64,000 nucleotides of DNA from Rhynochetos jubatus (lineage: Eukaryota > Chordata > Aves > Eurypygiformes > Rhynochetidae): contig CM050655.1 of the NCBI GenBank assembly GCA_027574665.1, forward strand, positions 11,465,170 to 11,529,169, written 5' to 3'. The notes below the pieces were generated by a model. It was not told where the DNA came from and did no database searches. It saw only the letters and a program-made list of their open reading frames with translations. Each line of letters opens with the position of its first letter. Positions within the stretch are counted from its first letter, which is position 1. Of this stretch, positions 26,040-63,900 are shown in pieces. A program made the position numbers and the translations under genes.

Positions 26040-29000
26040 GTATGCCGATACTCTCCCCTGGGGGGTTGCCGCTCTTGCTATGGGTGTCGGGGATTTATTT
26101 CTTCTTCTCTATAAGGATGCTTGGAGGAGAAAATATTGCATCCAGGCTTCATGTCTGTTATTTTTCCAGTTGCTTTGTGCTCTAGCTTTATTTGCAGAGG
26201 ATTAGCTTCTGAAAACACAGTAAGCTGATTTCAGAGAAAGCGTTTGGGCATCTCATCTCTGAGAACACAAGTGACATAATTACCGCTAGTGCAGAGGCAA
26301 AAAAGGAATAAAATTTAAACAATGTTTTGGGTTTTTTACCCTTGTGCTGAATATGCTAGTTTTAAAAGGCTTTATTCTGCTCTGCTGTTTTGTTTCTAAA
26401 GTGTAACTAGATTCGGTTTATGCTGTAGTACCAAAAACTGTAATTCCATTTACTTAAAGAATCCTTCAGTTGCAGATTTTGGGCATAGCGATAGACTGCA
26501 GATGAGAGTGAACCAAAAAAATAGATAATAATAACAACAATAATAATAAAAATAAAATAAGATACTTTTCAGACTGCAAACTTCCAGTTAAGAAAGAAAA
26601 CAAGACCAGAACCACATCCATTTTTTGAATGCAACGCCATTGTACAGGCATTTCTCTGGAGAACTGTAATAAAAAAGTCTTTCTGAAGGGTAATCGCAAA
26701 GGAATGATCTGCCTTAATGAAATACAGGCTATGTTTCTATAAGGTGCAGTTCACAGTAGAGAAGGTTTTGTGACAGGGCTAGAGTATGTGCAAAATCCTT
26801 TGGAAGAAATTTGTTTCTAGACAAGACCACAGTACTGAAATGAAAGGCTGTCCCCTATATTTTGGATCCCCATGAAATAGACCTACTTTCTTATCTCTTT
26901 TATGGTGCTGTAGATTTAATAGCAGAAACCTTTTCAGTAAGAAATGTAGTAGAGACACAAATAGTCTACAATTGTTAAAAGGGAGTGCAATGGCGGGAGA
27001 GCCAATTATTGCTCCATAAATGTCACAGTTCCCAGAAGAATTTCCTCTCAGTGACTGGAAAAAGCTGTAGTGTGTTTTGATAAGATACATAATGAAGCAA
27101 ATATTCATTAGTCCCTTAAGGAGCATAATGTCACCTTTTTTTCCACACTATGATTCCTATTGTTCACTAGTAGGAGGTTATCCCGTAGATTAAATGTTTA
27201 GTGCTCACTGACATAGTTTAGGGACACTGTGAGAGACACACTGTTTTACTGCCATAGAGTCTCTGTCATCAAACATTTTGTGCCATGACTACACACAAAA
27301 ATGTTTTATTGAAAGAGGATTTCTGGTTTTTTCTTATTTGATAGATTTTTCTCTTCTTTAAAATCTCAACTTCCAGAAGAGAGTGGGCAGGATTTAATGC
27401 TGCATTAAAAATGCTGGATGAAGAGTAATATATTATGCTTTGATTATAAATTAACAATTGAACCGTGGGCTCAAAGAACATTTAACACCGGGAAACTTGC
27501 ATGAGCAGTTCAGCGATATTTGGTTTTGTTGATAGTAGAAGAATAATTGCTTTCAGCCAAAACCAATCTGGTTTGGGCAGCTTTGTAATATTCTGTTTAT
27601 CAGTCAGGCAGTATGATAAGAAAATGTTACTTGACTGATCACATTACATTTCTTGCGGTATCTTGTTTAGCGTGTGGAGTGGGACATGCCTACCTAACCT
27701 GTTACCTTTTGCAAGGTGGCTTTGTATTTTGAGAACTTGCCTTTCTCTCCCTGCTGATAGGCAAATTAAAGTGCAACCTGGGAGATGTATTTTGTCTCCC
27801 TTCATTCCTCGTGGCTATCTACAGTCCCACATCTCAGCAAAGTTGAAGTCACAATTTTTTGTATGAAGGCTGCAAAAATGCAGCATGGGTGTTTCATTAT
27901 TTGACCTCTGGAGATTACAAATGGGAAGGAACAATTAAGAAACAAAAATCTGCTTTGCTTTTTGTGTAACGTTTCCCAAAGAGTTAATTTTCTGCACTTC
28001 CACAGCTGTGCATGCCTGTGGTGCAGTGACTGCAACCATCTGTATGCACCTTCCAGACTATTTCCTGGTAAAGCAGAGATTGCTGCGGTGTATTTCCAGC
28101 GAGTTGTTAGTTGACCTTCTAATCCTCATTTCACAAACGAAAGATCCTGTGCCGTATTTGATCTATATTGCTTCCTGCCATCCCACACATCAGTTAGGCT
28201 TCTTATATCTTTTAACATTCAATTTATGGATCCTTTTGTTTTAACATGCACTAGAATCCTCTGTTGTGCATGAATGTTGTCACTGCTGTCCACTCTAAGT
28301 AGTATAAAAAAAATTGGAAGGATTAAAAAGCAGGAACGTTATATGGGCCAGACTCAGACTCACACCTCTCCAGGAGAGGCACAACACTGCAGTCTCTGCA
28401 GTCAAAGGGTACATATGAATTGCTGCCAAATGATGTACCTACGGTGATGATGTAGACAGCAGCAGCAAGTAAGAAATGACAAGAAGAAAGCTCGTGAAAA
28501 AAAGAAAGGCAGATCAGAATTTTGCAATGAGATAGTTTCAAAACCTTTTCAAACCACAACAAAGTCGTGTGTGTGTGTGTGTGTGTGTGTTTTCCCACCA
28601 GGACAGTGCTGTGTAATGACCCCGAGATGACCCTCACTCCTGTGAACATCCCTGTAGACACATCCAAGCTTCGGATTGAGAAGACAGCCATCCGCAGGGT
28701 GCCAGGAGAGGCTTTCCACGCGCTCCACAACCTGGAGTACCTCTGGATGCCCTATAACTCCCTGGCCACCCTCAGCGGGATCACCTTCAAGGGACTCCGT
28801 CGCTTGCAGGAGCTGAGGCTGGATGGGAACGACTTAATATCATTCCCCTGGGAAACCCTGGCTGACATGCCACAGCTAAGGCTTCTGGATTTGCACAACA
28901 ACGAACTTACCTCAATCCCTCCTGATGCTGCTCGTTATGTCAAGAATATCACATACCTGGACCTGTCTAGCAATAAGCTGATGACTCTTCCTCAGGTCCT

Positions 29001-32000
29001 TATTGCCACCTGGGCCAACCTTCAGGCTGTTCCTTACTTCCCCAACGATAACGCCAAGATCATCCTAGGTAAGAGAAGTGCCTGTCATTTTGCAGGGGGC
29101 ACACATGACGAGAGCCCCACATCTTATTGCAGCATTTTCACCTACTGTGGTTATCACAGCAAGTACACAGTGATGCAATACCCCACATAAAGTGCGCAAA
29201 TTCATTTACATATTAACTCACCTCAGGCTCCCCACGCCTGGCTTATTACCCCATAAACTTCATCACTTGCTCGTATCTTTGTAACACAAAACTGGTGACT
29301 TGCTCAAGCCTTTTTTATTTATTGACACTGTCATTTTTGACAGAAATACAAATATGATTAGAGCTCCACATCATTCATGTGCTCTTTTCTAATAAGTTAT
29401 TATGGTATCAATCCATTTTAAGCAGCATTAAATAAAAAAATTGATATTTTTAATGTCCAAATTAAAGTGGAATATAAAGCCATCACTGAGCCTAAAATCT
29501 GGGTCAGGATTGCCAGTTTGTCTCTTTCTGGAGCCTAGTTTATTCACACAGAATTAAACCCTAGTCTCCCCAAAGCCACCAAGATAGTGCTGCCTTCAAG
29601 GGCAGCTATAAAGTTAAAAGAATACATTTTTTGGTGACAATTCTGGGCTCACCAGAAGTATGACTTTGGGGCAATTGTTCATTTTTGTGTCAGAGGGCAT
29701 ATTACAGATGACTGTGTCGAATCCTCTCGGTTGCAGTGTCCCCAGATGAGGTTTCGAGCACATTTACTAGTTCAGGGGATTACTGTTCAGCCCTTTAGCC
29801 ATCATGCACCAGTTCAAATCCACGGCAGGTCGATGATGGTTCAGAGTTGTTGCCATCTGCTGTCTTCACTTGCTACGAGCTGACCCAGCCACACTGACTG
29901 TGTCTGATCTGCGTGGCATGTGCATCTGTGTGTACTGCCTCTACAGGCACGGATGTGAGTTCAGGCATTTGCCGACCACCTCATCAGAGACACTGCAAGT
30001 TTTCTCTCACTCTGGGAAGCACCCGCTGCTCTTTGTTCTCTCTATAAATTTGGGGCAGTAAATATTTAAAACCAGATTGCAGTGTAAAGAGACACAAGAC
30101 ACTAAAAAGATTCGAACTGCCACCTACAAAGCTTTTAGTGTCTTTAGCAGATGCTGTTTAAGGTTTCATTAGCACCAGGAGAGGAGCAGATGTTTCGTCA
30201 TCCCATTCTGCCAGATGTGGTGTCAAGTGTTTTAAGCCAAATACGGTTGTTTGGGGTTGCACATTCCATTTGTGGCATGAGAAGACACTGCCTAGATGAT
30301 ACTCTTTATTTATCTTTTTACAGTTAGACGTAAAATAAGTTGTTCTATTCTATATAGATTAGGGGAGTATTTTGTCGTAAAAGAACAGATCGTGCCTTGA
30401 TGCTCATAGCCATCCTGAGTGTTTAGGTAGCCAGCTGTGCACAGGTTGCTTGTGCCAAGTTCCTAAAAATTTCATGTAGGCAAATGAGTATAATGTCAAG
30501 ATTACTATGGTAATGTATAGACACTCCAGATCCCAGCTCTTATCCTGCTGACACCCGTAGGAACCAGGTATGTGAAACTCATGTCCCTTGCAGGAGCAGA
30601 ATGGGAGAACACAGCTGCGCATTTCCGTTTCACTCTGCCCATGACTGTTGCTCATGAAGGCATAAAAAAATCCACGAATAATAAAGAGGCAGCCCAGTCC
30701 CTTCCTTTCTCTACAGTGCATCATTGGGACTGCTCTTCAGAGCCCTTGCTTGTAGACTGCTTCAAGAAGAAGTATTTCCAGTGGTAGCTTGCTGACTGAG
30801 AGTCTGTGCCATGGCTGCAAGCATTTGCAAGTAAGGATTGCCCACATGAGCCCACAGGACTGTGCTGTGCAGGGCACCAAAGGGCTCCTTGGGGCTTCGG
30901 GACTGCTGCAGCATCAGCTGGGGCTCCTGCCAAGGAATCTGGAATAAGTACTTATCTATCTGGTGCGTGAAGTCAGAAGTAAGCAGCTAGCAAAAATGCC
31001 ACAAGATAACCAAGCCAAGTTCTGAAGTTTAATTCTTTATTTAGTCCCCTTACCTTTAACACGTTATTTTAGAAGAACTGCCCTCCTGCCAAGGCTCACC
31101 ACTTCAGACCCCCTTCCAAGCCAGGGGAGGTTGCTATGCAATAGGCTCAGAAGAGATTTTTCAGCAGACTGTTTAAACCAGTTTACTTGAGGCCCTGGGG
31201 CTTTTGATTGACCCTGTGTTTCTCTAGCAAATTCAAGCAGCCCCTTGGTGCTCATGATGCCTCACAGCGCACTGCGCCGAAACCGGGTTCTTGCTGGAAA
31301 GCCGTGGCTTGCATGACTACTGCTGCAGTGAGCCAGGGACCAGCAAGAGCGGGCACCGTAGGGCAGGCAGCTGTCGTTTCCTCCTGCCAGGAATTGAGGG
31401 AGTACTAGTACTCTTCACTTTCAGGCAGTTGCCGGCACCGAGCCATATCCTTGGGCTGCCTGCGGAAAAGAGGAGGTGAAGACCCCTTGGAGGGAGCAGA
31501 GCTCACTCCTGTGGCGGGCAGAAGTCCTGGGACATCATGCTCCTGGCTCAGGCTTTTTAAATGCACTCCTGGGGATAGGTGGTATAAATATCCCCAGTGC
31601 CAATTCTGCTAGCCAAAGTCGCTAGAGACCATGAACTGTCCATAGGACAGGTGAATGGGAATACTTGTAAGAAGAATGACACAGTTTTGGTCAGAATTCA
31701 GCAACTTCTGTTCCTGCATTTCTCTAGTTATGGTTTTGCTTTTTCAGTACCATCTTCACATGTCTACTTTTATTAATGTCTCAGTTTTTCAGAATCTGAG
31801 TTCAAGGGGCGCACACTGAGATAGCAGAAAAAAGAAAAAGATTATGGGCCTCTGAAACATGGCAGTATTCTTCAACATAGCTCTTTCTATGTGTATATTA
31901 ATATAATTATTTATTTATGTTCTTTTATATACCATAACCTGTATATTCTTTAATTTGCTCCCTAAGAAAGTTCTTTTCATCTTATCAAGCGTAAGTTAGC

Positions 32001-35000
32001 ATTTCAGTAAAAACAATTGGTTACTAAAATATGAAAGTAACTTAGAATAACAGGGCTGGCAAGAGAACTCTCACAGTCAAGTAGGATCACCCACACCTAT
32101 TGCAGGCCTGACAGTTGGTCTGATAATGTGGTTAATATTTTAATAATCTCCAATGAGAATAATTTCCTAGCCTGTCTAAGGAAGTGACTCCATAAGCCTC
32201 TTTGTACCAAAAAACCCCACACCCCAAAACAAACCCAAGCTCCCCCATGGCTACTTGTTTTTTCCATCCTGGAACCAAATATGTTTATAACAAATTCTTG
32301 TTTTGCTTCTTTACATGCATAAATACTGATGTTTTAATTATATTAATAATATTGCTTTGAACTTACAGAATATTCTTACAGCTCCAGATTTTGAGAATCC
32401 TTAGTAAGCCATGTTTTTTCCTTTCTACTAACTGGCAACTGCGGGATCAACCAACCTCAGCCAACAGCAGCGCGTGCTGTTGGGACCCCCACCATCCTTC
32501 CTGCATATCCCTGCATATGCACAGACAGTCCTTACCAGGACAGATCAGCAGCCTATCACAGTTTGTTCTGCTGAAAAATAAACCCAAAAGTGACAGAAAC
32601 AAAAGGTGCTGTTGGAGTGACTTAGTGCTCTGGTTTATTTTGACAGGCTTGCAAGACAATCCTTGGGTATGTGACTGCAGTCTGTATGAAATGGTGCATT
32701 TCATAAACTTCCAGTCTCCTAACATAGCGTTCATCGAGCCCAGGCTGAAATGCTTCACCCCCCGGAGCCTCGCAGGAGTCTTCTTCAGCCAGGTGGAGCT
32801 AAGGAAGTGTCAAAGCCCCGTTGTACATACATCCGTGGCCAAAGTAAAGACCATCCTGGGCAGCACCGTGCTACTGCGATGTGGGACAACGGGGGTGCCC
32901 ATTCCTGAGCTCAGCTGGAGAAGGGCTGACGGTGCTCCACTGAATGGCACAGGTGGGTTTGGTTTAGGCTTTTCTCGTACACGTCGAGTGAATGAGGCAG
33001 ACCTGCACCTTTATTTTCTGAGGACTGTACAGCAAATGGAAGGTTCTATAACAACAGAGCCTTCCTACCCCTAAAAGACACAAAAAAAGAAAGTGGTGCA
33101 AAATTAAGATTCACTATAATTCACAAGAGTGTTTAATTCACTGTAGCACAGTGATTTTCCATAGACTATTAGATTACTTACATGCTGATGTAAATATTGT
33201 CAGATAAATGTATACTATCATGTGTAAAAAGTTAGTTTTGCTCTGTTTTGTATCAATTGCGGTGGTGAGACAAGTCAAGGGGGTTTCTGCAAGTCCGTTG
33301 GAGCTGAAGGAATTAAATATGTCCAGCTGTAGCAAGAGGCTTTTTCAGGTTAGTTATTCAGTCACTGGAAAGGTTTCCCACTGAATTATTTTATGGGTCT
33401 TTGAGAGTAATGATGAGCTGCTATTAATCAGTTAGCAAACATATCTGTCAGAGATGTCTGACATGAATTCAACTGGGATTCCAGTCTGTTGTGGCAAAGT
33501 AAGAAAAGATTGCAAACACACAGTATCACTGATATATTAATAGAGAAAAGAGTCACTAAACTGCTGAAGGATATGATACTTCAGTGACAATGCGTCCAAG
33601 AAATGGTCCCTTGGGGAAATGCTGACCAGGTCCCCTCCTCTGTGGCGGGAGCCTTCAAACAACCTCTCTTTTTGTGATTGATCATGCTTTCATTTCCATT
33701 CTCAAGAACAACGGGACCCCACATTTTAATGTCAGTCCTTTAATGTGTGGGGAATTTAGGGAAGAAACTTCTGCTGCACTTAAGGCAGTCATCCTTAGCA
33801 TTTTGCCCTAAAGGTTTTAAACTGGGACCTGAGCCTTCATCCCTCCAACTTCCCCTGAACATTACTGTGTCCCAGGTCTGGCCCTGACTTTCACAGCAGG
33901 TCTAAAATCAGTAGCTAGACTGCTAAGCATGGGGTCTGATCTTCAGGGGGTTACTGGGCACCTCAGTGCCCAGAAACAAGGGAGAGAGCGTTTTTCTTTC
34001 ACAGCAGTAGAACTACTTGTAATAAATATTGTTTTCTTGAGATCGGCACAAGCCATTGCTCGCTGTGCGTGATGTGCAGGATGTAGCAGAGGTGCTCCTC
34101 ATAATGATGCCTACCCATCAAGCTGTGAACATCCCTCCTACACTTGAAAGAGAACCACAACACAACATAAAACAGGGAATGCTTTCCTGAAAGCGTATGT
34201 TGAGTTTACTCTGGGCTACAACGGAGCATGATGTGTTTTGTGCCCCATTAAATCAGACTTCAGCACCTTTCAATAAAAAGTTGGCTGAAAATATACATTA
34301 TTTCTCAGCAGTGGCACTTTGGTGCAAATGCTGTAATATGACTGTTTGAAATGTTGGCTTTCTCAATAGAAAGGAGTGGGAAACAGCCCACAGTATGCGG
34401 AGGTGCTGTAGGAAGATCGGTAGCTTTATGTTTTTTAATACGCCCATTCAGTAAATAATCAAACTGAAAAGGTAACTTCTCCTGCCACTGTATTTCACTG
34501 AGACTGGAATGTGCCCTGGTTGCCAAGGCTGAATCCTGACCCCATGAGGACCTGGGAGAAGTTTGCATCCTGTCTTACCTTTGCCTTTCAGACATCTGCC
34601 TTGTTTATCTTTCGGTACGAAAGGGCAGAGCCAGTGTGTGCTCATCCTAAGGAGGCTGGTTAAATAATGAAGAAGGTGCTTTACCCTTCTGCATGATCCC
34701 AGCTGTTGTTTTCTGCATAAGTAGAAAAAGACAAAAAAAAAAGCTAGTTGTAGCCTCTGGGTAGTCCAAGCGAGAAAGTAACACTCAGCTGTGTACATAT
34801 TGTTCATTGGTAAGTGATCTGACTTCCCTGTATTTAGCTCAATATAAAACCCTACACTAATTTAGCAGTAAAAGTGATATTATTTTTCAGCTATTTTTCT
34901 CCATGTACTTTAGACTAGGCAAATATATGTTTTTTAGAAGAAAGTCTCCACTATTTATATTGACTGTGACTCAGAAAACTGCATCTAATGTTCAACCAGG

Positions 35001-36369
35001 TCATGTTACTACCTACTCCTTCCACTCTTTTGAGTGTTGTACCTACATCAGAGCTTTAAGCTGGTTTTTTTTTTTTTTTTTTTTTAATGGAAGAACCTTT
35101 CCTGTTTTGTTTTCTACCTTTTTGTCAGTTGAGAGGAAATAACATCAAACGCTTTACATATATTTGGTCGAAGGCAGTGTAAATCTCAACATAACCCAAT
35201 TTTAGTGCTAATGCCCTTTTCTTGCACTTACTTTAGTTTTGTAATGTTCTTGGTCACAAAAAGAAATGACAATTCTTCTGTATTGAGCAGACGTTTGGCG
35301 GATTGAATCTTAATGTTTTACAAAATGTGTTATTAACTCTATTGATTATTGCCTATTTATTTTACACTTTTCTTTCCTCATAGTTCACCAAGAGATTTCC
35401 AGTGATGGGATGAGCTGGTCTATTCTGGGCCTGCCTGTAGTCTCTTATCTCGACTCTGGAGAGTACATCTGTAAAGCAAAGAATTTTCTGGGGGCAACTG
35501 AGGCGTTCATATCTCTCATCATCACAGACTCAGAAAGCACGGATGACCCCAACTATAATGCCAAAGGCTCATGGAGCGGGAAGGCGAGCGGGATGGAAGC
35601 AGCTGCCTACAATGACAAGCTAGTGGCAAGGTATGTTATCACCACCTCCACCGTGCCTACGCTGAGGGCTGGAGTGGGCACCGGAGAGGACCTCCTTCTC
35701 CCAGATGTGGCACAAGATAGCAACCCCAGAAACCTGCTGGTGAGCCCCCCTACCGATCAACAGGAGCCGGAGCGAATTGTGAGGTCTGTCAGGGTGATAG
35801 GAGACACCGACCAGAGTATCACCCTGGCCTGGAAGGCGCCTCTGGCAAAGAACACGACAGTGTTCAGTGTCCTCTATGCTGTCTTTGGAGAGAGAGACAT
35901 GCGGCGGATCAACGTGGAGCCAGGGAAGACCAAGGTCTCCATTTATGGGCTGCTGCCAAAGACCAAATACATCGTGTGCGTCTGCATGAAAGGGCTGATC
36001 CCCAAGAAGGAGCAATGCATCATATTTTCCACAGATGAAGTTGCCAGTGCAGGAGGGACCCAGAAGCTCATCAATGTGGTTGTCATCAGCGTGGCCTGTG
36101 TCATTGCTGTTCCTCTGACACTGGTGGTCTGCTGCGGGGCACTGAAAAGACGCTGCAAAAAATGCTTCGTGCGGAAACCCAAGGAAATTCAGGAGTCCTA
36201 TGTCACCTTTGAAAGCCTGTCTCCTGGGGCCAAGGCGAAAGGTGTGGAAGGAGAGTACTTGACTAGACATACCCCTGATGAGTCGAACAGGCTGCTGTCT
36301 GCCCGATCCAGCGTGGACTCTGAAGCAATACCAAAGATAGAGGGGCAACCTAACGAATACTTTTGCTGA
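25918..36369 (+). CDS. LRIT1: LRIT1, leucine-rich repeat / Ig-like / transmembrane domain protein 1, complete
   Basis: Role (known): retina-specific type I membrane protein at photoreceptor synapses, modulating transmission to bipolar cells. Seen: exons 25918-26039, 28602-29068, 32647-32952 and 35384-36369, all GT-AG and frame-consistent, giving 626 residues (human about 623). Order: signal peptide (1 to about 21), LRR N-cap with CPSQCSC (23-29), LRRs to about 195 (for example LRLLDLHNNELTSIP), LRR C-cap starting NPWVCDC (201-207), Ig domain with Cys275 and Cys328, FN3 domain about 425-515, transmembrane helix about 527-551 (NVVVISVACVIAVPLTLVV), and a cytoplasmic tail ending NEYFC, as in human LRIT1. 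The ATG at 25918 is followed at once by the signal peptide. The gene is co-oriented with LRIT2. AATAAA at 37684 is a candidate 3' end signal. Confidence 0.97.
26522..26563. repeat. AAT-rich simple repeat
   Basis: Imperfect AAT/AAC/AAAAT units in LRIT1 intron 1. Low-complexity sequence with no coding sense. Confidence 0.75.
28567..28590. repeat. (GT)12 microsatellite at the LRIT1 exon 2 acceptor
   Basis: Twelve GT units run up to 28590, followed by TTTCCCACCAG and exon 2. The repeat occupies the place where a polypyrimidine tract is normally expected. The open frame through it would read as alternating Cys-Val and is not coding. Confidence 0.9.
28602..29068 (+). CDS. LRIT1: LRIT1 coding exon 2 (leucine-rich repeats)
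   Basis: 467 bases, residues 41-197. The acceptor CCACCAG lies directly behind a (GT)12 run and the donor is GTAAGA. It encodes the last N-cap Cys and the LRRs with LxxLxLxxN spacing ([25 protein letters not shown]). It ends in phase 1. Confidence 0.97.
29069..32646. other. LRIT1 intron 2
   Basis: 3.58 kb GT-AG intron, phase 1, separating the LRRs from the LRR C-cap. LRIT2 has no intron at the matching place. No coding exon or transposon body recognised. Open frames near 31208-31479 have no domain support. Confidence 0.85.
32647..32952 (+). CDS. LRIT1: LRIT1 coding exon 3 (LRR C-cap, start of Ig domain)
   Basis: 306 bases, acceptor TTGACAG and donor GTGGGT. It begins GLQDNPWVCDC, runs through FIEPRLKCFTPRSLAGV, and enters the Ig domain with LLRCGTTG (Cys275). 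The open frame extends upstream to 32391 and past the donor, but those parts are intronic. Confidence 0.96.
32953..35383. other. LRIT1 intron 3
   Basis: 2.43 kb GT-AG intron, phase 1, inside the Ig domain. It contains a T21 tract at 35065-35085. No coding exon recognised. Confidence 0.85.
35065..35085. repeat. T21 homopolymer
   Basis: Twenty-one T in LRIT1 intron 3, about 300 bases before exon 4. No identifiable retroposon body on either side. Confidence 0.85.
35384..36369 (+). CDS. LRIT1: LRIT1 coding exon 4 (Ig, FN3, transmembrane, tail)
   Basis: 986 bases to the TGA at 36367-36369, with acceptor TCATAG. It encodes residues 299-626: the second Ig Cys (GEYICKAKN, Cys328), the FN3 module (SITLAWKAP ... 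LLPKTKYIVCVC), the membrane helix and the whole cytoplasmic tail. Confidence 0.97.
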
Positions 36370-43908: not shown

Positions 43909-46900
43909 GTAAGAACGCGTTACCCTAGTTGTAGCACCAGCGGAGCAGCTCAGAGACTCCCAGTATATGTATTTGCCGATGCTGTGAGCACCAAAACCAA
44001 GCAGATGGCCGCATGGTATGCCTCCTCTAACACTTGAATAATACTAGCTTGAGCATAGAGTGCGCGTTCTATTATTTCCCTGAGATATGCGGTTGCGTAC
44101 ATACCAATTTTTATGACTTACTGGATTTCTTTGTGGGGAAAATGGTTGTAAAACCCGGGCAAGGATGGATGCATGGCGCATGCATGTCTTGTCTACGATA
44201 CCTTATAATTATCTGAGTGCTTGTAGACCTGTATAGAGTTCTGCTTTATTAGCCGTGAACGTGGTTTGCAACCTGGATAATTTTCTGGGTTTTTTCCTTA
44301 GGACTTTGCTCTGCATGTCTGCACTGTTGAGGCAGATCCCTGCAAACATCCCTCAGGACATCCGGAAAATTAGAATAGAAAATTCTCACCTAACAGAATT
44401 GCCTCGGGGCTCTTTTGAGAACGTTAGTGCCTTGGAGTACCTCTGGCTCAATTTTAACAACATCACGGTGATGCACATCAAGAGCCTGGAGTACCTGCAG
44501 GCTCTGAAGGAGCTGCGCTTGCAAGGGAACAAATTAAGTTCGGTGCCATGGACAGCATTTCAAGATACCCCAGCTCTGAAAATCCTGGATCTGAAGCACA
44601 ACCGGCTGGATGTCCTTCCAGAACACGCGCTCCGCTATCTGCCCAACCTGACCTATTTAGATCTATCCTCAAATCAGCTTACTGTCATATCCAGGGATGT
44701 CTTCTACAGCTGGCCTGTCTACCAGAGAAGCCAGAGGGTGGAGGAGCAGGGAGAAGCTATTTCCAACGCCGTCCTGGCCCTTCATGACAACCCCTGGATT
44801 TGCGACTGTCGCCTGCGGGGATTTGTCCAGTTTATCAAGTCAGTCGGCCCACCTATTATTCTGATGAATTCCTATTTAACTTGCTCAAGCCCAAAATTCA
44901 GGGCCGGGAAGTTTTTTCATGAAGTGGAGCTCAACAGCTGCATGAAGCCCCTGACCTCAGCCCTTGACACCAACCTGACAGTCCCAGTGGGGTTGAACGT
45001 CACCCTGACCTGCTTTGTGCAAGCCAGCCCTTCCCCGGCAGTCTGGTGGACCTATGCACTCAAACTTTTAAGGGCATTCAATGGTAAGCAAAGCTTTTTC
45101 TTCTTTTTTGTTTTCATTACAAATGTACGTTCTACTTATGTAGGTCTTCAGGCCATCCCAGTCACCACACCAGTTCTCAACCCATTTAGACCTTTACAGT
45201 TATTGTGGTGGCAATAATCCAAATAATCTTAATTGTTTTATGTGTCTAAGCACGTCTGACTGGTATGGGAAGAACTGCTTCATGCAGGATATCAGTCAAA
45301 GATGGAAGGAGCACGGCCTCATTTTTACACAATTTTATGTGTGGATTTTTAGTAGTAGCCCTTTCATCATGACACATGACGTAGGAACTATTAATAATAC
45401 ATCAGTTGTACATATATAATAAATACGTAGTTACGTAGACATGCATATATATTTACACTATATATTATATGCACACATACTAGATAATTATGTTTACATG
45501 TACATGTGTGTTGGTAGGAGCATGCACACACAGAGGTTGTCGTTCTCCATCAGCCTTGCTTATTTATAGTCCTTATTGAAGGCCTTGTAAGATGAAGCCT
45601 TTGCCTCTTCCTTCCCATCCAGCTTGGCTCTTACACACCCTCCCTCACATTTATTTTTACTAAGAGCCTTCAATAGGACAAGTTGCTATTTTCATCAGGT
45701 AAGCTAATAATGCATACGGGCACTGCACAGGCTATGTGTGCTCCTAAGAAGCCAGATAGCTAAATAAGATAGCATTAGCCCTTAATCCTGGGCTGATATT
45801 TGCTTTAATTGCAGCACTGTAGCAGCACTTCAGCATCTTTCCATAAGCACATGCTGAATTAATTACAGACTTTTCCCAACCACAACCACACATCCCTGTC
45901 TGGGTAGATGATGGGGTGTTTTGTACTGTTCTGAAAGCTGCATCTCACTTCCAGCCCAACGCTTCCTGGCCCCACACGTCTGTCTTTGGCCTGAGCCTCT
46001 TGAGATGCATTCCACGTCTCCTGTGCTCGGGCGTCCTGGTGCGTTTATTGCCTTTTGGCCCGGGTAACGCTTTGCTGATGATCTCTGTGGGGTTCGGTGC
46101 ACTCCCACACCCCTCTTCCTCTTTCCCTGGGCAGGGCAGGTCCTGCCTGACCTCCTGGCCCTCATCCCACACAGGAGTGGTCTTGGGTCTGCATGGGCAG
46201 GAGGGACCCTCGCTTGCTGACACAACCTGCTTCTGCCCACAGTGTCCACCGAGCCCATCAGCGAGGAGACCGTCCGCTCAGAGCTGCTGATCCCTGCAGC
46301 ACGGCCAGCGGACGCCGGCAACTACACCTGCACGGCCGCCAACTTCTTGGGCAACACCTCAGTGGCCATCACCCTTCATGTGAGGACACCGTGGGCGTCC
46401 ACCACTCCCCCGGGCTGGGCCCCCATCGCCCCTGCTGAGACAGGGGCCCACGTAGAAGTGCGCATCGCCAAGCAGACGGTCTACGGCATCACCCTGGAGT
46501 GGTTTGCGGCGGCGGCAGCAGCAGCAGAGCAGGGTGAGACGTGGTACACCCTCCTGGTGGGCCGCTACGATGCCGCCCAGAAGGATGCCATCTACATCGG
46601 CCCAGGCGTCAACACCTACTCAGTGACCGACCTGCTGCCCGCCACCAAGTACGAGGTCTGCGTGGCTGTGCGCAACCAGGCACCCCGCAAGGGCCAGTGC
46701 GTCGTCTTTGTCACGGGCAGTGACGTCAGCCAGCTGGAGCAGCGCGAGAAGCTCATCCACATCGTCGTCATCGTCTGCGCCATGGTGCTGGCCGTGCCCG
46801 CTGGCATGTACGCCTGCACCGCCGAGGCCCGCCCTGGCTGCCTGGCCCGCTGCCCCGGCGCCTGCCCCAGGCGCCGCCGCGGGGGACAGGCACAGGCCGC

Positions 46901-47054
46901 AGGCAGCAAGGAGAGCACGCTGGACAGCCTGCCTGCTGGCAGCGAGGACGGGCTCTGCCGCCCCGATGGCGGCCGTGGTGCCCGGCGTCCCCCAGCCTGC
47001 GAAGAGCCTGGCAAGACCCGTCCACCCCACAGGAACAGTGCTGACCTTTACTAG
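43799..47054 (+). CDS. LRIT2: LRIT2, leucine-rich repeat / Ig-like / transmembrane domain protein 2, complete
   Basis: Retinal paralogue of LRIT1; its function is less well established. Seen: exons 43799-43908, 44302-45083 and 46243-47054, GT-AG and frame-consistent, giving 567 residues (human about 550). Order: signal peptide (1 to about 20, [16 protein letters not shown]), LRR N-cap (CVTGCSC), LRRs to about 190 ([26 protein letters not shown]), C-cap NPWICDC (200-206), Ig domain with Cys274 and Cys327, FN3 domain about 368-455 with a seven-Ala run, transmembrane helix about 468-490 ([19 protein letters not shown]), and a Pro/Arg/Gly-rich tail. The ATG has A at -3 and G at +4. It is LRIT2 rather than LRIT1 because LYEM/LHNL-type LRIT1 signatures and the NEYFC end are missing, and because of gene order. 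Confidence 0.96.
43909..44301. other. LRIT2 intron 1
   Basis: 393-base GT-AG intron, phase 2. Nothing recognised in it. Confidence 0.9.
44302..45083 (+). CDS. LRIT2: LRIT2 coding exon 2 (all LRRs, C-cap, start of Ig)
   Basis: 782 bases, acceptor TTCCTTAG and donor GTAAGC. One exon covers what LRIT1 divides between exons 2 and 3. It encodes residues 37-298 and ends in phase 1 in the Ig domain after LKLLRAFN, the same position and phase as the LRIT1 Ig intron. Confidence 0.97.
45084..46242. other. LRIT2 intron 2
   Basis: 1.16 kb GT-AG intron, phase 1. The left half is AT-rich with TA/TG-rich low complexity (about 45400-45515); the right end becomes GC-rich towards exon 3. Open frames of 124-152 codons at 45863-46321 on both strands are by-products of this GC-richness. 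Confidence 0.85.
46243..47054 (+). CDS. LRIT2: LRIT2 coding exon 3 (Ig, FN3, transmembrane, tail)
   Basis: 812 bases to TAG at 47052-47054, with acceptor GCCCACAG. It encodes residues 298-567. Very GC-rich and CpG-rich compared with exon 2. It includes the Ig Cys327 (GNYTCTAAN), the FN3 core ([18 protein letters not shown]), the membrane helix and a low-complexity basic tail. Confidence 0.95.
46507..46527 (+). repeat. GCG/GCA triplet run (seven Ala) in LRIT2
   Basis: Three GCG then four GCA codons in frame, giving seven alanines inside the FN3 domain after LEWF. Human LRIT2, as remembered, has no Ala run here. A triplet tract of this kind may vary in length. Confidence 0.85.
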
Positions 47055-51398: not shown

Positions 51399-51950
51399 CT
51401 AGATGTGGGGCTCACCGATAGCTGCGTTCCTCTTCTCAAACTTCATTTTGAGCTCTGACACCAGGGCGTTGTGGGTGCTGCTATGGCCTCTCTTCTTCAG
51501 CTGCTTGTTTATAAACTTGGGGGTGAGGGATCCGGACACGGTCGACACCCGCCACCCCGAGTCGCCCCCCCTGGGAGCCAGGGCAGGGAGCGGTGGGGGC
51601 GAGGGGGCGGATGGTGGCACGGGGGCAACGTGGCTGTTGTTGTTGCTGTTCTCGTTGTGTAGGCTCTTGGCATCATCCTCAACGACAAACTTCTCTGCAG
51701 CATTGCTGGGCCTCTTGAACTTGAGCCACTCCATCCTGACTGTCCGGGACGGCGGGGTCTGTCTCTTTTTTATGATCCTTCTCACCGGCATGATTTTGTT
51801 GGACCGCTTATTGCGCCAGAACATGGCAGTAGAGATCATGATAGTTATCAGCACCATTATGCCCATGACACCAGCTAGCACTCCTAAGGCTTTCATGGGG
51901 TTATCTTTAGTTTGCATCAAAAAGGCGGCCATAGGCCCTTTGTGAAGAGT
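51399..51950 (-). CDS. CDHR1: CDHR1 canonical terminal exon (transmembrane segment and long tail)
   Basis: 552 bases, phase 0, 183 residues plus TAG at 51401-51399. The acceptor is CTTTTACAG. It starts [20 protein letters not shown], then the membrane helix, FWRNKRSNK and the tail. A possible donor (CG|GTGAGC) lies at 51415-51410, five codons before the stop, so the last residues (GEPHI) could be replaced if splicing occurs there. I favour the open stop. Confidence 0.9.
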   Translation of the reverse strand, partial: TLHKGPMAAFLMQTKDNPMKALGVLAGVMGIMVLITIMISTAMFWRNKRSNKIMPVRRIIKKRQTPPSRTVRMEWLKFKRPSNAAEKFVVEDDAKSLHNENSNNNSHVAPVPPSAPSPPPLPALAPRGGDSGWRVSTVSGSLTPKFINKQLKKRGHSSTHNALVSELKMKFEKRNAAIGEPHI

Positions 51951-54900
51951 CTGTAAAAGAGTACAAAGAAAACACGTGACTTACTCTATGGGACAGACAG
52001 TGACCCAGAAATTTCATTTGTCCAAAATATGTAACAAGCAGGGCTGACTAATGGAAGTTGTCTCTAAAAAAAATGAGAGTCAAAGGGCCAGTCCAGGTTT
52101 GGAGAATTTAGCTGGAGCGGGAGACTGGCCACGACAATACTGTGAGATGGATGACTGTCGAACACGAAAGCTTACAGGAGTATTACCGCCAAATTAGGAC
52201 GGATTCCTGCGTGTCACCATAGCGTTTGTGTAACCTGCAGGAACTGAGCAAGAAAATAATTGGGTCCACGATCTGCAGCTGTATTGTTGTACATTTCAGA
52301 GTGAATTTCCTAGGAATAACAGTGTTGAACCCAAACGGAAGTTTGTTAGCAGAAAATGAGCTTTCAAAAACAGTTGCAGGTGATATGGTGATGCAGTTTA
52401 TAGGGCTGTTACTGAGCATGGCCTTGAAAAGATTCTGAGAAAAGTTAATTTGATAAAATTACAGTGTACAAAGGAGTAGCTAGCAGGTATGTGCTGCATT
52501 CTGTTTTCAAGTACTCTTTTACAGACACAACAAAACTCTTTGAGGTAGGGGAGATGAGTAGAGCTAAAGAGCTTTGTTTTTACAAATAAAAGAAATAAGC
52601 AGTAACGTAACCTACGTATGGCATATTAAGGACAAATGAATGGCCAGTTCACTTTGCAGCTTAGCACACTCTGCGCCTCGGAGGTCCCCGTATAATTTTG
52701 CGGATTTTGCCCTGCGGGTGGAGCCTGGATCTTTTCACACTTTTCCAGTACATGATGGTGGAGATCACCATTGTTACAGAAATGGTGGAAAGGACGCCAC
52801 TCATGCAAATTCCAAATATCGTCCATGGATGCTTCTTGAGGCCTAAAATATAGGATTTTACCCTGGACTTGATCTGGAAATATCAAAAATAAGATAAACG
52901 GTCAACCCTCACGTGGTTATATTTGAAAGAGGCCTTTCAAATCTATTATAAATATTATATCTATTATAAATACAGTTAGGGAGCTAGAGTGAAACGTGTA
53001 CAGGGTAGAGAGCATGTAAAATAAAGGGAGCTAAGTGCTGAACTAGGCACAGGAGAGGAGGCAGCTGCAATGACATTGAACTGAATCCAGAAACACTAAG
53101 AGACGTTAGGGAGCACGTATAAACACCCGGTTGATCAGGGAATAAAGGGTAGCAGCACAGCACATAGATCACCCTTATTCCTGGCGTGGAGTCCACCCTC
53201 GGACTACATTTCCAAGAGTTCATAATGAACATAAGGTCCTGCAACGGTATCTGGGCAGCCAGTAGTGTTGCGCAAGGCCAGGAGATCCTTCAGAAATGGC
53301 ACATTCACAAACAGGTTTATTTATCAAGAGCTGATCATAAAGCTATGTGCAGCTGTGGAGTGACATATCTACTCATCGTGACCCACTCCTCTGGCTGTGA
53401 CCTCAGGAGGGAACCATCACCCAAACTTTGCATGTCTAGTAACAGGTTATCTGCATTGCAGTTAGCGGTCTAAGCTCCCAGCTTTTAGTCGGTGAGGAGA
53501 AAAGGACACCTCCAGAGTAGTAGTCACCACATGCTAAAACAGGTATCAAAGACAGTGAGTATAAGGAGAGCCTTGTGACTAGCTTGGACTTGGACCTCTG
53601 GCTTTTAGACATTTAAAGAGATCAGATGGATTTCCCTGTATGACTCTAAACTAGGACGCTCATCTCTTTTATCTTCCCCAGTCTGTGGAGGGAGATGGCT
53701 AAGAGTATCACCAAAGAATGCTTCAGAATATCTCGTCATGTGTTACACAGGAACACCATTTTTAAATCACATCCCTAATGTATATCCATTAGTAAACACC
53801 CCATTGTCTTCATGTCTGTATTTTCACAACCTACCTCAAACACATCATCTAAGCCCACTCTTCCCCTGCTCTGAATGTTTCCTATTGCCAAAGGAAACTG
53901 GGCAAAGAAATGCTATTCAAACTCATGGACCACATTACTTTACAGGTAGTGACCAATTGGCATCATTTTGCTGGGCAAAAAGTTTTTCCATTATTTAATT
54001 AGGAATGGACCTGGGCTAGAAACCAAAAGCAGAGCAGCCCATGACTTTGGCAGAGCTTGGATTCACGTCAGCTTTGCTGTTTGTTCTGCCTTAGATGGAT
54101 TTTGTGTACTTAAATCCCATCAGATGACAGAAACTCTACCCTGGCTTACTTAACTTCATGTGAAAGTCTGATGAATTAAGTGCCAGATAAGCCCTGCTAA
54201 GTACTACATGACCTGAAACGAGTCCACTTATTATGAGTGTTGTCAAGATCTATTTTGTAGTGAGGCACTGGTGGCTAAATAGTATAGGACCAACACAAGG
54301 AGAAAGATGACATGTACCTAAGAAGAGCTATATCTCAGCAATAATTATTTGACTAGCTATTTGAAAACGTTGAATAAATGGGATTAGACAGAAATATGTG
54401 TCAATGTCGCCAGCGTACAACAGTTGCAGGGCTAAGAACTGATGGAAATCATATGTGGAGTTTCAGAATTCGTCTTCCTTCAACTCCCCCTTGTCGCACC
54501 AAGTTCAGACTCCCAGTGATTAGTACCAAAACTAAAACCATTGATAGTTAGCTGGTTCAGCCTATATTTTAGTTAATTGGCCTGTAGCTTTGCCTAGAAT
54601 CAGCCTTGGATAACAAATCTTCTGTAATGTCTGCATAAAAACATAAGGAATTTTGTAAGCACACAGCTGGAGAATTTCTGTTCGTCCTGGCCATGAGACT
54701 CATAGGATAAACAGGAGGAATAACTTGCAAACCAAGCCTGGAATGACATCATCTTAGCCAGCCTGCAGAGAGGGTTAATGTAAGTGCATTTGTCACCAAA
54801 AAGCTTTGCAATCTTGTCTGTGTCACCACTTTGGCCTGATCAGTTAACACACAGAACAGGCCCGCGAGAGGTCTGAGGACCCCCTGACAGTGAAAGTCTG

Positions 54901-57900: not shown

Positions 57901-60900
57901 TTCTCATCTACTTTAAAGCCCATTTCCTCCCTGCTGGTACCAACTTAAAGGCATGGCAAGACAGTGACAATAAGCAAGAATCATGCAAGCATGTGCTGCT
58001 CACCATAAATTGCTGCTTGTTCTTTGGTTGACATAAAAGTTGGGCTCACGGGACACTCTCAACCTACGTGTGTTATCTTTCAGAGTCTCCTTGTTTCACT
58101 GCTAATAATACTGCATTTATTAAACTCACATCCAAAATTCTATGTACTTTAAAGCATTTCCATAAAGTTTTCTCACTTTTCTTATGTCACTTATGTTGAC
58201 ACACTTGCAAAACTGGGCTGACATATTTCACTCTGGTCCCATCTTACTTTCTCCACACTTTTTGTAGGGGAAAAGGATACAGGGGAAAAAAGATTGTTTT
58301 CTTCTCCTGAATGAAAACAAAAAAGCAGAAATGTAGCAGTCAGGATTTATCTTTACTCTCAGGAGTTGATAGTCCTTAATTTGCATCTATCTCTAACATT
58401 CAGACGCAAGGAACTCATCTCCCAACATCACGCTCCTACCTTTGTACCTTTGCAATTCCTCTGATCAAATTGTCTTATACATTTGTGGCTGTAGAATCCA
58501 GCTCCACCACAAGGCTCTAGAAACACTCTACAAAACAGAGCTAGCAAGAACAGAGAAATAATGGCTGGCAACATTTTAGCTGTTGATTTCAACACCTGAA
58601 GCATTTTTAAAGTAGTCTCAGGAATGGGGCAAGCAGTGACTACTCTTTGGTGCCTCTTGAGGATCTTCTCACCTAAGGATTTTTCTAAAAAGTTTGCTTA
58701 CCTCCTCTGTAATGTCAATCTTCAGAACTGCCGTGGTACTGAAGGACGGGGAGCCTCGGTCTTTGGCCTGCACCACCACTGACCATATGCAGTCTTTGTT
58801 CTTTGTGATGTTGTGGATGATGTCCAGGGAACGGATATAGGATTTCAGCTTGATTTCCCCAGTGCTTTGGTCTATATCAAACACATTGGCTGGATCTGCT
58901 TGCATGATGGAATAATCCACGATGTTGTTGGGCTCTTCTGCATCTTGATCTATAGCCTGGTAGGGGAGATGTAAAGAACAAAGGTGTTATTGTTTGTATC
59001 TTTGCCTGAAGACAAAACTCTAAAAGTTTCTGAGCATTCACTTCTGATAATATCCATGCTGTGAGATGACTGGGCTGGTTTTGTTTCATCTTGGAAACAA
59101 TTTTCCCCTTTCTGGTATCAGCTAGGCTACATTTTCAAGTGAAAAACAGCAGGAGTAGAGTTCTTTCTGTATAAGCGATTTCTATTTGAGATTAAATAAA
59201 ATCAGAGGAAAAACTGAACCATAACCTATCCGTAGAATGCAAATGGTCCACTGCTGTGGAGTTTCTCACACAGCACGGGGGGACAGATGCGAAGTGACAG
59301 GGAACAATGGGATTAGCTCCACACTACAAACTATAGCTGCCTTAATTTTTGTGCCGTGATAGTTATTCCACTAACGTTAGGTGTTGTGCAATCAGGCTTC
59401 ACTATATGCATTCAAATACTTGTAACATAGGATGTTCTGCTCCTTTAGCTGTGAATTGTTACTGCATTTTTTTACCTCCTGTTCCACACTGGATCAGTGA
59501 ATACAATTCTGCAAAGCCAAGGGAAAGAAGTTGTGTGGTTGAGCACAAAGGCGTGGCGGGAAGGTTAAGTATCCAAACACCTGTACTTTCAATTCACTTT
59601 TCTTATGATCACTGTATAATCCAGGATCTTCCACCAGCTGAGGGTTCAAATACTGTAACACAACTTTATCTTTTGCCCATAGAATTTATTTCTCCTTTCC
59701 ATAAATACTGTGATTCCATACTTTAATCCATTTGTTACATAAAAATGGATATGCAAAATAAAGCCCCAGGAAAAGCCAACTTTCAGACATACATCACGAT
59801 CCCTAAGCAATAAACAGCAGAGCTGGGGCTTTTCCAAAGTGCTCTGCTTTGTCACACGCTGTGTTGTAGTCTCTCACCTCTATCTTCACCGGTGACCCGA
59901 TGACCATCGTCTTTTCCTGGATGTTTTCATTGAACTCTGGAGAGTGGTCATTGACATCCAGCACAGTGATGAACACTTCAGCCAGGCTGTATTTCCCATC
60001 TGTGTCCTCTGCCTTCACATAGAAATTGTACTTCGAGTTCACTTCAGCATCTAAGACAGCCCAGGGCTGGGTGTAAATGATACCTGTTGATGGGTGGATT
60101 AAGAACCTGGGAAAGAAACATGGAAAGACTTTTGGGTTTTTTTGTCACTTAATGTGTGTTTAGAGCCTGGAGCAAAAGTGGGCTCTAAACATCGAAATGC
60201 TGTGAACAAAGATTGCTACTCTTCACCTAACTCCTGTCTGGTGGGTGTTTCCAAACCATTCACTCTACCTATTTTTGGCTAGTTCCTCTAGGCCTGAAAA
60301 CCAGAAAACTCTCAGCATCTGGGGTTTTTTTCTATCTATTATACATTAGCCATTTTAGCTGTATTTTCTGTTAAAGTCTTTGTCCTCAGTAAATGCTCAG
60401 TGTGATAGCCCTCTCCCAGAGTGATTTCTTTGCGGTAAAACATTAAGGAACTGCCTATTTTTTTCAGTTTATAAGTACAATGTATTAGATCATGTCCTGC
60501 ATTAATTAAGATTGATTGATAACACTTCAATAGCTATGGGAAGTGTGCTGCATATCATATTTAAGCTCTTCACTTCTCAGAAAGGGTAAGAAAAATGGCT
60601 GCTCTCAAATCCCCCAAAGTGCAGGCCAAATTATCTCCTCCAAAAATAATCACTTTTCCATAGACTAGCACTGGGATGGAGTGGGTGTTCAGATTGATCT
60701 GTAACAAGTTCAATTCTGCACAGTTGTAATTACTGAGACACTGTCAAAAGTGTCATCCAAAAGCTTGGATTTATAGAAAAGAAGTGTCTTTTTAAAATGG
60801 AGAGCCAGTGCAGGCTCCAAGCAGTAGGGTTTTTTACAGATGAAAGGTTTTATATACTCTTTAATTAATGTACAGGATAAGAAAATATTTTCTGTATACC

Positions 60901-63900
60901 AACTGTGAAGTGCAATTGAGTGATTATAAAAGGTGCACTTAATAGTCCAGAAACTTCAATTGTTTTCATTACCCTGTTAAATACAAATGAAAGCCGAGAC
61001 CTGGAAGTGGAAAGAGTCATGCAAACTCTTGGTAGGAGACAGTGCCCATGCTGAGTGCTTCCTTAGCACCCAACCCTGCCTGACCATGCAGAAAGGGCTC
61101 TCATCACCCACATTTTAGCAGAAGAATAGAAGCACTGAGATGTGAAGAGGTTACAGCAGTGTACCCCACTCCCACTTGGATGTAGGACTACCAGCATAAT
61201 GGTTTTGTCTTCAACAGTTAACACTATTCTTCTCACTCCAGTACAACTCATCTTTCTGCCAACACAACTGCATATCCACTGATGTAACCCCTGAGGCAGA
61301 AAAAATCATGCCTCTAATTGAAACTCTTAAATCTGCATTAAACTGTGTTCAGCAGATCTGGAGGTCCCAGGGCGAGGAAATCAATCCAGCCTTGCAGAGC
61401 CATGCCATTCTGGCACAAGGAAAGGCAAGGAAAAAAATAAAATCATACTTAAGAAGGAAAAGTCTTCACATCTTAATTTCCTCATTCAACAGCATAAGAC
61501 AGAGTCTGTGCATCCCGGTAACTCCCATCAGAATAAAGTTACACTCACATTTTTCCTAAATCCTTCATCAACAACCTTCACAAACTTCTTTGTACCAGCT
61601 GCTACATTTTAAACCTGAGAGGTCTGCTTGTACAACATGACCTTCCCCTGCTGGCTTCTATGCAGTTTGCAGCTAGCTTAAGGATTTAGAGAAGAGCTCA
61701 AAATAATCCATTCTGGAAATGCTCCCATAGGTGTAGCCTTCTGGCTACAGAAGAGATTCACCCTTAACATCTTGGATTTTGGACTTTGATTGTGCCTCTT
61801 AAATGGCCTTCACCTTAACAAAAAGAGTTCAGCTTTAACTCCAGGTGGATAATGTATGGAGAAAAATGGATTCTGGGGATAAGCGCCTGAAAAGCTCATT
61901 CATTTCCAGTATTTTGCCCTGCAGCCCCACCATATCCAAGAGCTGCAGGTTTCAGCAGCAGTATCTGTGATGGCCAGTGATGCTAGCCACAGCTGGGAGC
62001 CCCAGCCGGGAGCCCCAGCCAATGGGCCAGGGCAACTGCTGGGTTGGAAGCAGTTGCACTGGGAGAAACCAGTGTTTCAGGGTGTTCTTACCCCAGCACT
62101 GTCCTCAAAGACAGGGAGAGGGAGCTAAGCTTCATTACAAAATCAGGTAGGCGTCAGACTCCCTTCTTCCCTGACGCAGGACCATTAGGTATAAATATAT
62201 AAACCATATCAAAGACCCAATACAGTTGGCCTCCAAAGCTACAGTTTATGTTCTTGAAAGTCTTGCCTTCTTGATCTGTTTTGACAACCATTGAGACTGA
62301 ATGATTTGTACAGCTGTATGGAAAGGGAAGGGGAAAGAGCAAGGGATTTCCACCCCCCACACACCCCCCGAACTAACTTTTCACATCTAGACCAAAGCCT
62401 CTTCTTTCTCTTACAAGTGTTTTTTCAAATGGTGATTGAACAGATTCTGTGTATTGGTTCTTCAGCTGCCTTATGTCTCTTCGGGGGCTTGCGGGTAAGG
62501 TTCTATGGGTTCATGAAGCAGATGCTTAATGATCACGCCAGTTTTCCTGTTGTTTTCACAGAACTTACAAAGAACATGGCGTAAATGTCCTTGGAAATGA
62601 ACAGGTCAAGAGCCTGTTCTCTTTTAAAAAAAATTATTTTAAGTCCCTGCTTAAAACTCTGCTTAGAGGTTATGTAGGGTGGGTTCTTTTATGTTTTGTG
62701 TTTGTTGGTTTTTTTTTTACTTACAGATCTGCTCCTGTTCCATAGATAGAGTACTTGACTTCTCCCCAGAGCCCTGAATCTGGATCTGTAGCCTTAAGAA
62801 AATAAAATAAGAGTAAATTTTACTAAATTGCAAGAAGAACTGTTTTTTCTTTTAACAACAGGCCATGAAAAACTCCAAATGCTTTTCCCTCTTTACTGAC
62901 ATCACATTTTTAGGGGGAAATCACATAAACAAATGTGCACCTAGAAAACTGCAAAATCCAACATAAGGCTGACCTTGGAAGCTGCTAGGACGCTTCTGTC
63001 CCCTGGCCAGGCTGGTGCCAGAGGCACTGGCAGGGAGAAAGCCACTAGGTGGCCCCATCTATTGATATTTAACTCTCCCTGCCTTTGACAGGGATGAACC
63101 TCGTCTCAATGACGCAAACAAACTGCCCACTCTCAAGCCTTCCTAATTACCAGTTAAATATTAATGCGTATTCCCTGGACAAAATTATTTACTTTAAATA
63201 GACTACTTTTTTAAGCCTCTGCTTGCTTAATTGATTCAATTTAAAGTAATGCATAACAAACGTTTCAATCTATACACAACATTTCATCGTTGTTTAGATT
63301 TTAACCACTCTTGTGACTGTGTGACTTCTAGTAAAGCGGCTACACCAGATGATATCTTTGTTCCAGACTCTTGTTGGCTTCCTCTCTTAGCTCAGGAAAG
63401 CTATTGATTTGGTAACAGCCAGTTCCATAAGCTCCTGCTTCTCTGATAGCTCTGAGGAGGTGCTACATTATACTGTTGTAGCTGGACATCGCAATTCACG
63501 GTGGCAGCGGTCGATTCAATCATCTTCCTGTTTAAATATTGAACACTGGAACAATGTCTTTGATTTGAAGTGCTCAAGGCCAGGCTTTGAGCAACCTGAT
63601 CCAGTGTAAAGTGTCCCTGCTTGTGGCAGGGGGGGTTGAAACTTGATGGTCTGTAAGGTCTCTTCCAACCCAAACCATTTGGTGACTCCTGCATGGTTAA
63701 CAGAACACAGCTGCAGCCCTGCTGATGGGTGGTTTTTTTAGTTCTTTGACATGAGCTTGTCAGATTCTCTCACCCCAAAATTTTGACCTCAGTCTACTTT
63801 AGGACTGCCTAACTTTTCCTAAAATATTTGCACACCTGGGACTTCTGCCAGAATTGCCACCCTGAGTACCTGGAGTGTCTCAGTTTGTCAGGTATATTTG

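Follow-up and report, generated by a model that had tools for sequence, protein, structure and literature searches.

A conserved alternative 3′-terminal exon of CDHR1 in Rhynochetos jubatus, probably an ancient copy of the first, anchor-coding part of the last exon

The CDHR1 locus and its two last exons

The window, that is the whole 64-kb stretch of Rhynochetos jubatus DNA that was analysed, carries on its minus strand the 3′ part of CDHR1, the photoreceptor cadherin also named PCDH21, with three shared exons followed by two alternative endings. The window exons match CDHR1 of Zonotrichia (P0002) at 97% over a 254-residue query, and the exons for residues 175-512 of the same protein were found further upstream on the same contig. 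The features of the gene in the window are listed below in transcript order.

62725..62792, minus strand: shared upstream CDHR1 exon
59878..60106, minus strand: shared upstream CDHR1 exon
58702..58956, minus strand: shared penultimate exon, with a donor able to join either last exon (phase 0)
52661..52873, minus strand: alternative last exon (70 codons, stop TAA), identified from the sequence and from CDHR1 proteins with a homologous tail, 58 of the 118 that were classified
52862..52873, minus strand: possible 12-base microexon (IKSR) at the start of the alternative exon, followed by a donor-like AGG/GTAAAA
52823..52873, minus strand: juxtamembrane residues 1-17 of the alternative exon (limits set by hand)
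52745..52822, minus strand: predicted transmembrane segment, residues 18-43 of the alternative exon (Kyte-Doolittle; limits set by hand)
52664..52744, minus strand: basic cytoplasmic tail of the alternative exon, 27 residues, net charge +11 (K/R minus D/E)
52397..52402, minus strand: TATAAA, a weak variant of the poly(A) signal, 261 bases past the alternative stop
51399..51950, minus strand: canonical last exon, 183 codons and stop, matching the canonical tails in 60 of the 118 classified proteins

Elsewhere in the window, two neighbouring genes on the plus strand (28531-36369 and 44237-47054) encode leucine-rich repeats, Ig and fibronectin III domains, as judged by Pfam on parts of them, and they resemble LRIT1 and LRIT2. 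An open frame at 9678-10025 on the minus strand resembles part of a retinal opsin-type receptor such as RGR; this fragment has no Pfam match.

The alternative exon sits within CDHR1, downstream of the shared penultimate exon, and its end (52661) is separated from the start of the canonical exon (51950) by 710 bases. The penultimate exon (58956-58702) ends in phase 0 with the donor GAG/GTAAGC, and the alternative exon opens in phase 0 behind the acceptor GATATTTCCAG/ATC. The canonical acceptor has the same phase, so that the donor at 58702 is able to splice to either last exon. Each last exon carries its own stop, so that choosing the first one ends the protein. The coordinates and motifs that the sequence-only reading had given for 52873-52661 hold on re-reading of the sequence, the acceptor and the phase.

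Hydropathy analysis revealed a hydrophobic segment in both last exons; in the alternative exon the top 19-residue Kyte-Doolittle mean is 2.05, at residues 19-37. Pfam matched no family on its 70 residues. The alternative cytoplasmic tail has 27 residues, compared to 138 in the canonical one.

By a crude pyrimidine measure the alternative acceptor scores 0.73, compared to 0.87 for the four other CDHR1 acceptors in the window, and is the weakest of the five. By the same measure, 17 of the 457 AGs in the same intron score as well, that acceptor included. Open frames of 70 or more codons follow 281 of the 4786 AGs on the minus strand. An open frame behind an acceptor was therefore rejected as evidence for an exon, both being frequent by chance. 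At the 3′ end, neither AATAAA nor ATTAAA occurs past the alternative stop as far as the canonical exon, a stretch where only TATAAA and AATACA were found; AATAAA is absent for the canonical exon too, in the 1.9 kb scanned.

Duplication, occurrence and conservation of the alternative exon

Pairwise alignment of the alternative against the canonical exon covers 69 columns with 28% identity and a local BLOSUM62 score of 90, a likeness beyond chance. Neither 1000 shuffles of the whole sequence (maximum 49) nor 1000 shuffles within three segments (maximum 62) reached this score. A tblastn search of the 64-kb window with the alternative exon found the canonical exon as the only non-self match at E<0.1 (E 3.8e-6; next 0.44), and thus no third copy in the window at that threshold. 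At the DNA level, the alternative exon has a single match in its own 1.33 Gb genome, namely itself. The two are thus paralogous alternative exons, each coding for a transmembrane segment, as seen from alignment and hydropathy.

Phylogenetic analysis was performed on 38 tails picked from the classified proteins, 21 alternative and 17 canonical, in an unrooted tree. The canonical tails form one clade, split from the alternative tails with an ultrafast bootstrap of 100 and a branch length of 1.86. This clade attaches to the alternative tails beside sturgeon with a support of 45, in departure from the species tree, and relations within the groups also fit the species tree poorly. The tree split, together with the alignment and the tblastn match, supports the origin by exon duplication and subsequent divergence that had been suggested from the sequence. 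Tetrapods and ray-finned fishes each have both kinds of tail, which places the duplication before the ancestor that they share. It may also predate sharks, as the shark and ray tails are all of the alternative kind in a set that holds no shark canonical tail. No firm placement before the jawed-vertebrate ancestor is made, given an unrooted tree without a shark canonical tail.

The distribution of the alternative tail was followed by three protein searches. The first query, 67 tail residues plus two shared residues, gave 32 candidates and 14 clusters: one led by Zonotrichia (44 members, 96%), a python, eight frogs, gar, bowfin and two eels. The second, composed of four diverse tails and run at E up to 10, gave 7075 candidates and 42 clusters, which include the previous 14 and 28 further ones from ray-finned fishes. 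The third, exons 14-16 joined to the alternative tail, matched 769 proteins at E up to 1e-30, and the 120 listed add a sturgeon, two sharks and a ray with the alternative tail; turtle and crocodilian proteins among these 120 of 769 have the canonical tail. Three of the 121 proteins from the searches (P0118, P0120 and P0121) have no recognisable junction and were excluded. Among the 118 classified, 58 carry the alternative tail (64-71 residues, 53 distinct sequences) and 60 the canonical one, proportions that mirror the queries and not prevalence because the queries included the alternative tail. The alternative tail thus occurs in birds, python, frogs, gar, bowfin, sturgeon, eels, teleosts, two sharks and a ray, largely in predicted gene models. 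Gadus macrocephalus has two CDHR1 genes (P0024 and P0101), both with the alternative exon.

In the databases the alternative tail ends CDHR1 models labelled "isoform X2" or "isoform 2-T2", to which the tail of the window exon is homologous. An alternative-tail isoform annotated in other species, which the sequence-only reading had thought possible, therefore exists in CDHR1 models of many vertebrates, and these models support use of the exon as an alternative last exon. Disabling changes (stops or frameshifts) in other birds, named beforehand as part of what would speak against it, were not borne out: the Zonotrichia exon, the sole sequence read of the 44-member cluster, is intact and shares 66 of 70 residues with the window exon.

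In a number of models the last part begins with VRPMAAF, namely in Apteryx (P0049-P0053, P0056, P0060 and P0076), Anser (P0054, P0058 and P0071), Anolis (P0074, P0084 and P0092) and Cairina (P0116). Either this start is an artefact of gene prediction, or the junction allows a further splice choice.

Compared to python, frogs, ray-finned fishes, sharks and a ray, the alternative tail of the window is 50-77% identical. A matched comparison was possible with bowfin, the only species for which both tails were retrieved: the alternative tail (74% identical over 65 residues) is as well conserved as the matching first 72 residues of the canonical exon (71% over 68), and the whole canonical exon is 53% identical over 160. 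In unmatched comparisons, the canonical start (76% and 80% against two frogs) is similar to or somewhat better conserved than the alternative tail (70% and 77% against two other frogs). Across 59 rows, 15 of 70 columns are conserved at 0.9 or above, with 6 of 17 in the juxtamembrane segment, 5 of 26 in the helix and 4 of 27 in the tail. This pattern points to a constraint on the alternative exon at the protein level, spread over all three segments.

Altogether, 52873-52661 is a real, constrained alternative terminal exon. We consider it, with a probability of about 0.92, to be a conserved alternative 3′-terminal exon of CDHR1 that derives from an ancient copy of the first, anchor-coding part of the last exon.

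Human isoform 2 and other readings of the exon

Human CDHR1 isoforms 1 and 2 have 859 and 745 residues, respectively, of which the first 680 are identical, according to the cited passage of PMC6201214; this is the single statement on the two isoforms found in open-licence PMC papers, and PMC3688712 and PMC7917623 have no bearing on the alternative exon. From the variant c.2040+5, named in a passage of PMC5539332, it follows that codon 680 is the last of exon 16. By these passages human isoform 2 would thus leave at the same junction, with a private tail of 65 residues that falls within the 64-71 range of the alternative tails. From length and junction, the window exon likely corresponds to the tail of human isoform 2 (NP_001165442.1). 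A CDHR1 variant has been named on NM_001171971.3 in a passage of PMC9368980.

It is possible, if rather doubtful, that human isoform 2 ends instead in an unrelated exon and that the alternative exon was lost or greatly changed in mammals, a question that touches the human link only. No mammalian protein with the alternative tail occurs among the matches of the tail queries or among the 120 listed of 769, and platypus and four marsupials (P0093, P0097, P0104, P0107 and P0114), also among these 120, have the canonical tail. However, the departure after residue 680 (PMC6201214), at the end of exon 16 as placed by c.2040+5 (PMC5539332), and the 65 further residues, to the extent that these passages give them, argue for the shared exon, and the searches required shared 5-residue words, worked on 90% clusters and listed 120 of 769 matches.

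It is very unlikely that the exon serves mainly as a regulatory ending, which cuts the output of the long form by premature termination and leaves the short protein of little weight. The weak poly(A)-like hexamers past the alternative stop would suit such a role, but a purely regulatory ending need not keep 15 of 70 positions at 90% or above in 59 rows, nor a hydrophobic helix and a basic tail.

Another reading takes a 12-base microexon as the main product, in which IKSR alone is inserted before the canonical tail via the internal donor. A donor-like AGG/GTAAAA does follow directly after these 12 bases, and the Zootoca vivipara model P0079 reads IKSR and then the canonical tail. Nevertheless, this arrangement appears in only one of 60 canonical tails, compared to the whole exon in 58 proteins, and conservation extends along the whole alternative exon. 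Moreover, residue 5 is F, M, I or L instead of V in many teleost, eel and shark rows, which by codon reasoning excludes a GT at that place in those rows. The microexon is thus extremely unlikely as the main product; the donor-like site and the Zootoca model suggest that a third CDHR1 form, IKSR followed by the canonical tail, may exist.

That the exon is a relic out of use, open by chance in this bird, is hardly credible: a strong poly(A) signal is missing after its stop and frames this long behind an AG are frequent (281 of 4786), but the near-identity with Zonotrichia (66 of 70 residues), the 50-77% identity as far as sharks and a ray, and the steady length of 64-71 residues throughout speak against it.

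Proposed product and comparison with known systems

We propose that a copy of the first, anchor-coding part of the last exon gave rise to the alternative exon before tetrapods and ray-finned fishes diverged, perhaps before the split of sharks, and that its protein was conserved afterwards. The donor of the penultimate exon would join either the alternative or the canonical exon, in phase 0 both ways, and we infer that the alternative exon is spliced in Rhynochetos jubatus. The resulting product would keep the ectodomain unchanged and acquire a new extracellular juxtamembrane segment, a new transmembrane helix and a new tail.

The alternative anchor might alter how the ectodomain is held in the membrane, through shedding, membrane compartment or the loss of long-tail partners, while binding by the ectodomain would stay as it is; we give such a function about even odds. 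The change affects the membrane-adjacent stretch and the tail, so the most economical guess is a difference in shedding or routing. In the passages cited, proteolysis is reported to remove the CDHR1 ectodomain (Rattner 2004, as cited in PMC13090022), and CDHR1, in a construct of human isoform 1, to bind Prom1 (PMC10659291). More tentatively, CDHR1 may have had two duplicated, separately constrained anchors since early vertebrates, which give it long- and short-tail fates; cleavage or routing of the short form might be distinct, for example in rods as opposed to cones or in retina as opposed to olfactory bulb. In mammals the second anchor may have been altered or lost, in which case mammalian work would miss it.

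According to passages of PMC5539332 and PMC13090022, variants of CDHR1 cause recessive cone-rod and related retinal dystrophies. A second anchor kept from sharks to birds would mean two membrane-bound CDHR1 forms under separate constraint, which could differ in ectodomain cleavage and the calyceal process link (PMC13090022) and in Prom1 binding (PMC10659291), as far as these functions are described in the passages cited. If human isoform 2 ends in the alternative exon, variants in this exon deserve screening. Within the open-licence PMC literature, no study appears to have examined such an anchor duplication in a gene linked to retinal disease, hence its moderate interest.

The alternative CDHR1 ending is not new, since database models already have the isoform. 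The isoform X2 or isoform 2 models, such as those of Zonotrichia albicollis (P0002) and Xenopus laevis (P0012), belong to the same gene, use the same junction and end in a homologous tail of 64-71 residues that includes a hydrophobic segment of its own; no difference from the window exon was found, which is another orthologue.

PCDH15, a cadherin of photoreceptors and hair cells, also has alternative C-terminal exons, which give isoforms of the cytoplasmic domain. Unlike the CDHR1 pair, these isoforms have their transmembrane segment in common and are not known to be duplicates of each other. In Drosophila N-cadherin, exons 18a and 18b are internal. Similar to the CDHR1 pair, they are paralogous alternative exons that yield isoforms of a cadherin transmembrane domain, but they are mutually exclusive, as described in the cited passage (PMC3303723), whereas the CDHR1 exons are terminal, each with its own stop, and the genes are different. 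The same passage reports that no difference in subcellular localisation was seen between the 18a and 18b forms, which calls for caution over different fates for the two CDHR1 anchors. By analogy, and without a claim to membership in the fly gene family, the CDHR1 exon pair may work like 18a and 18b of fly N-cadherin.
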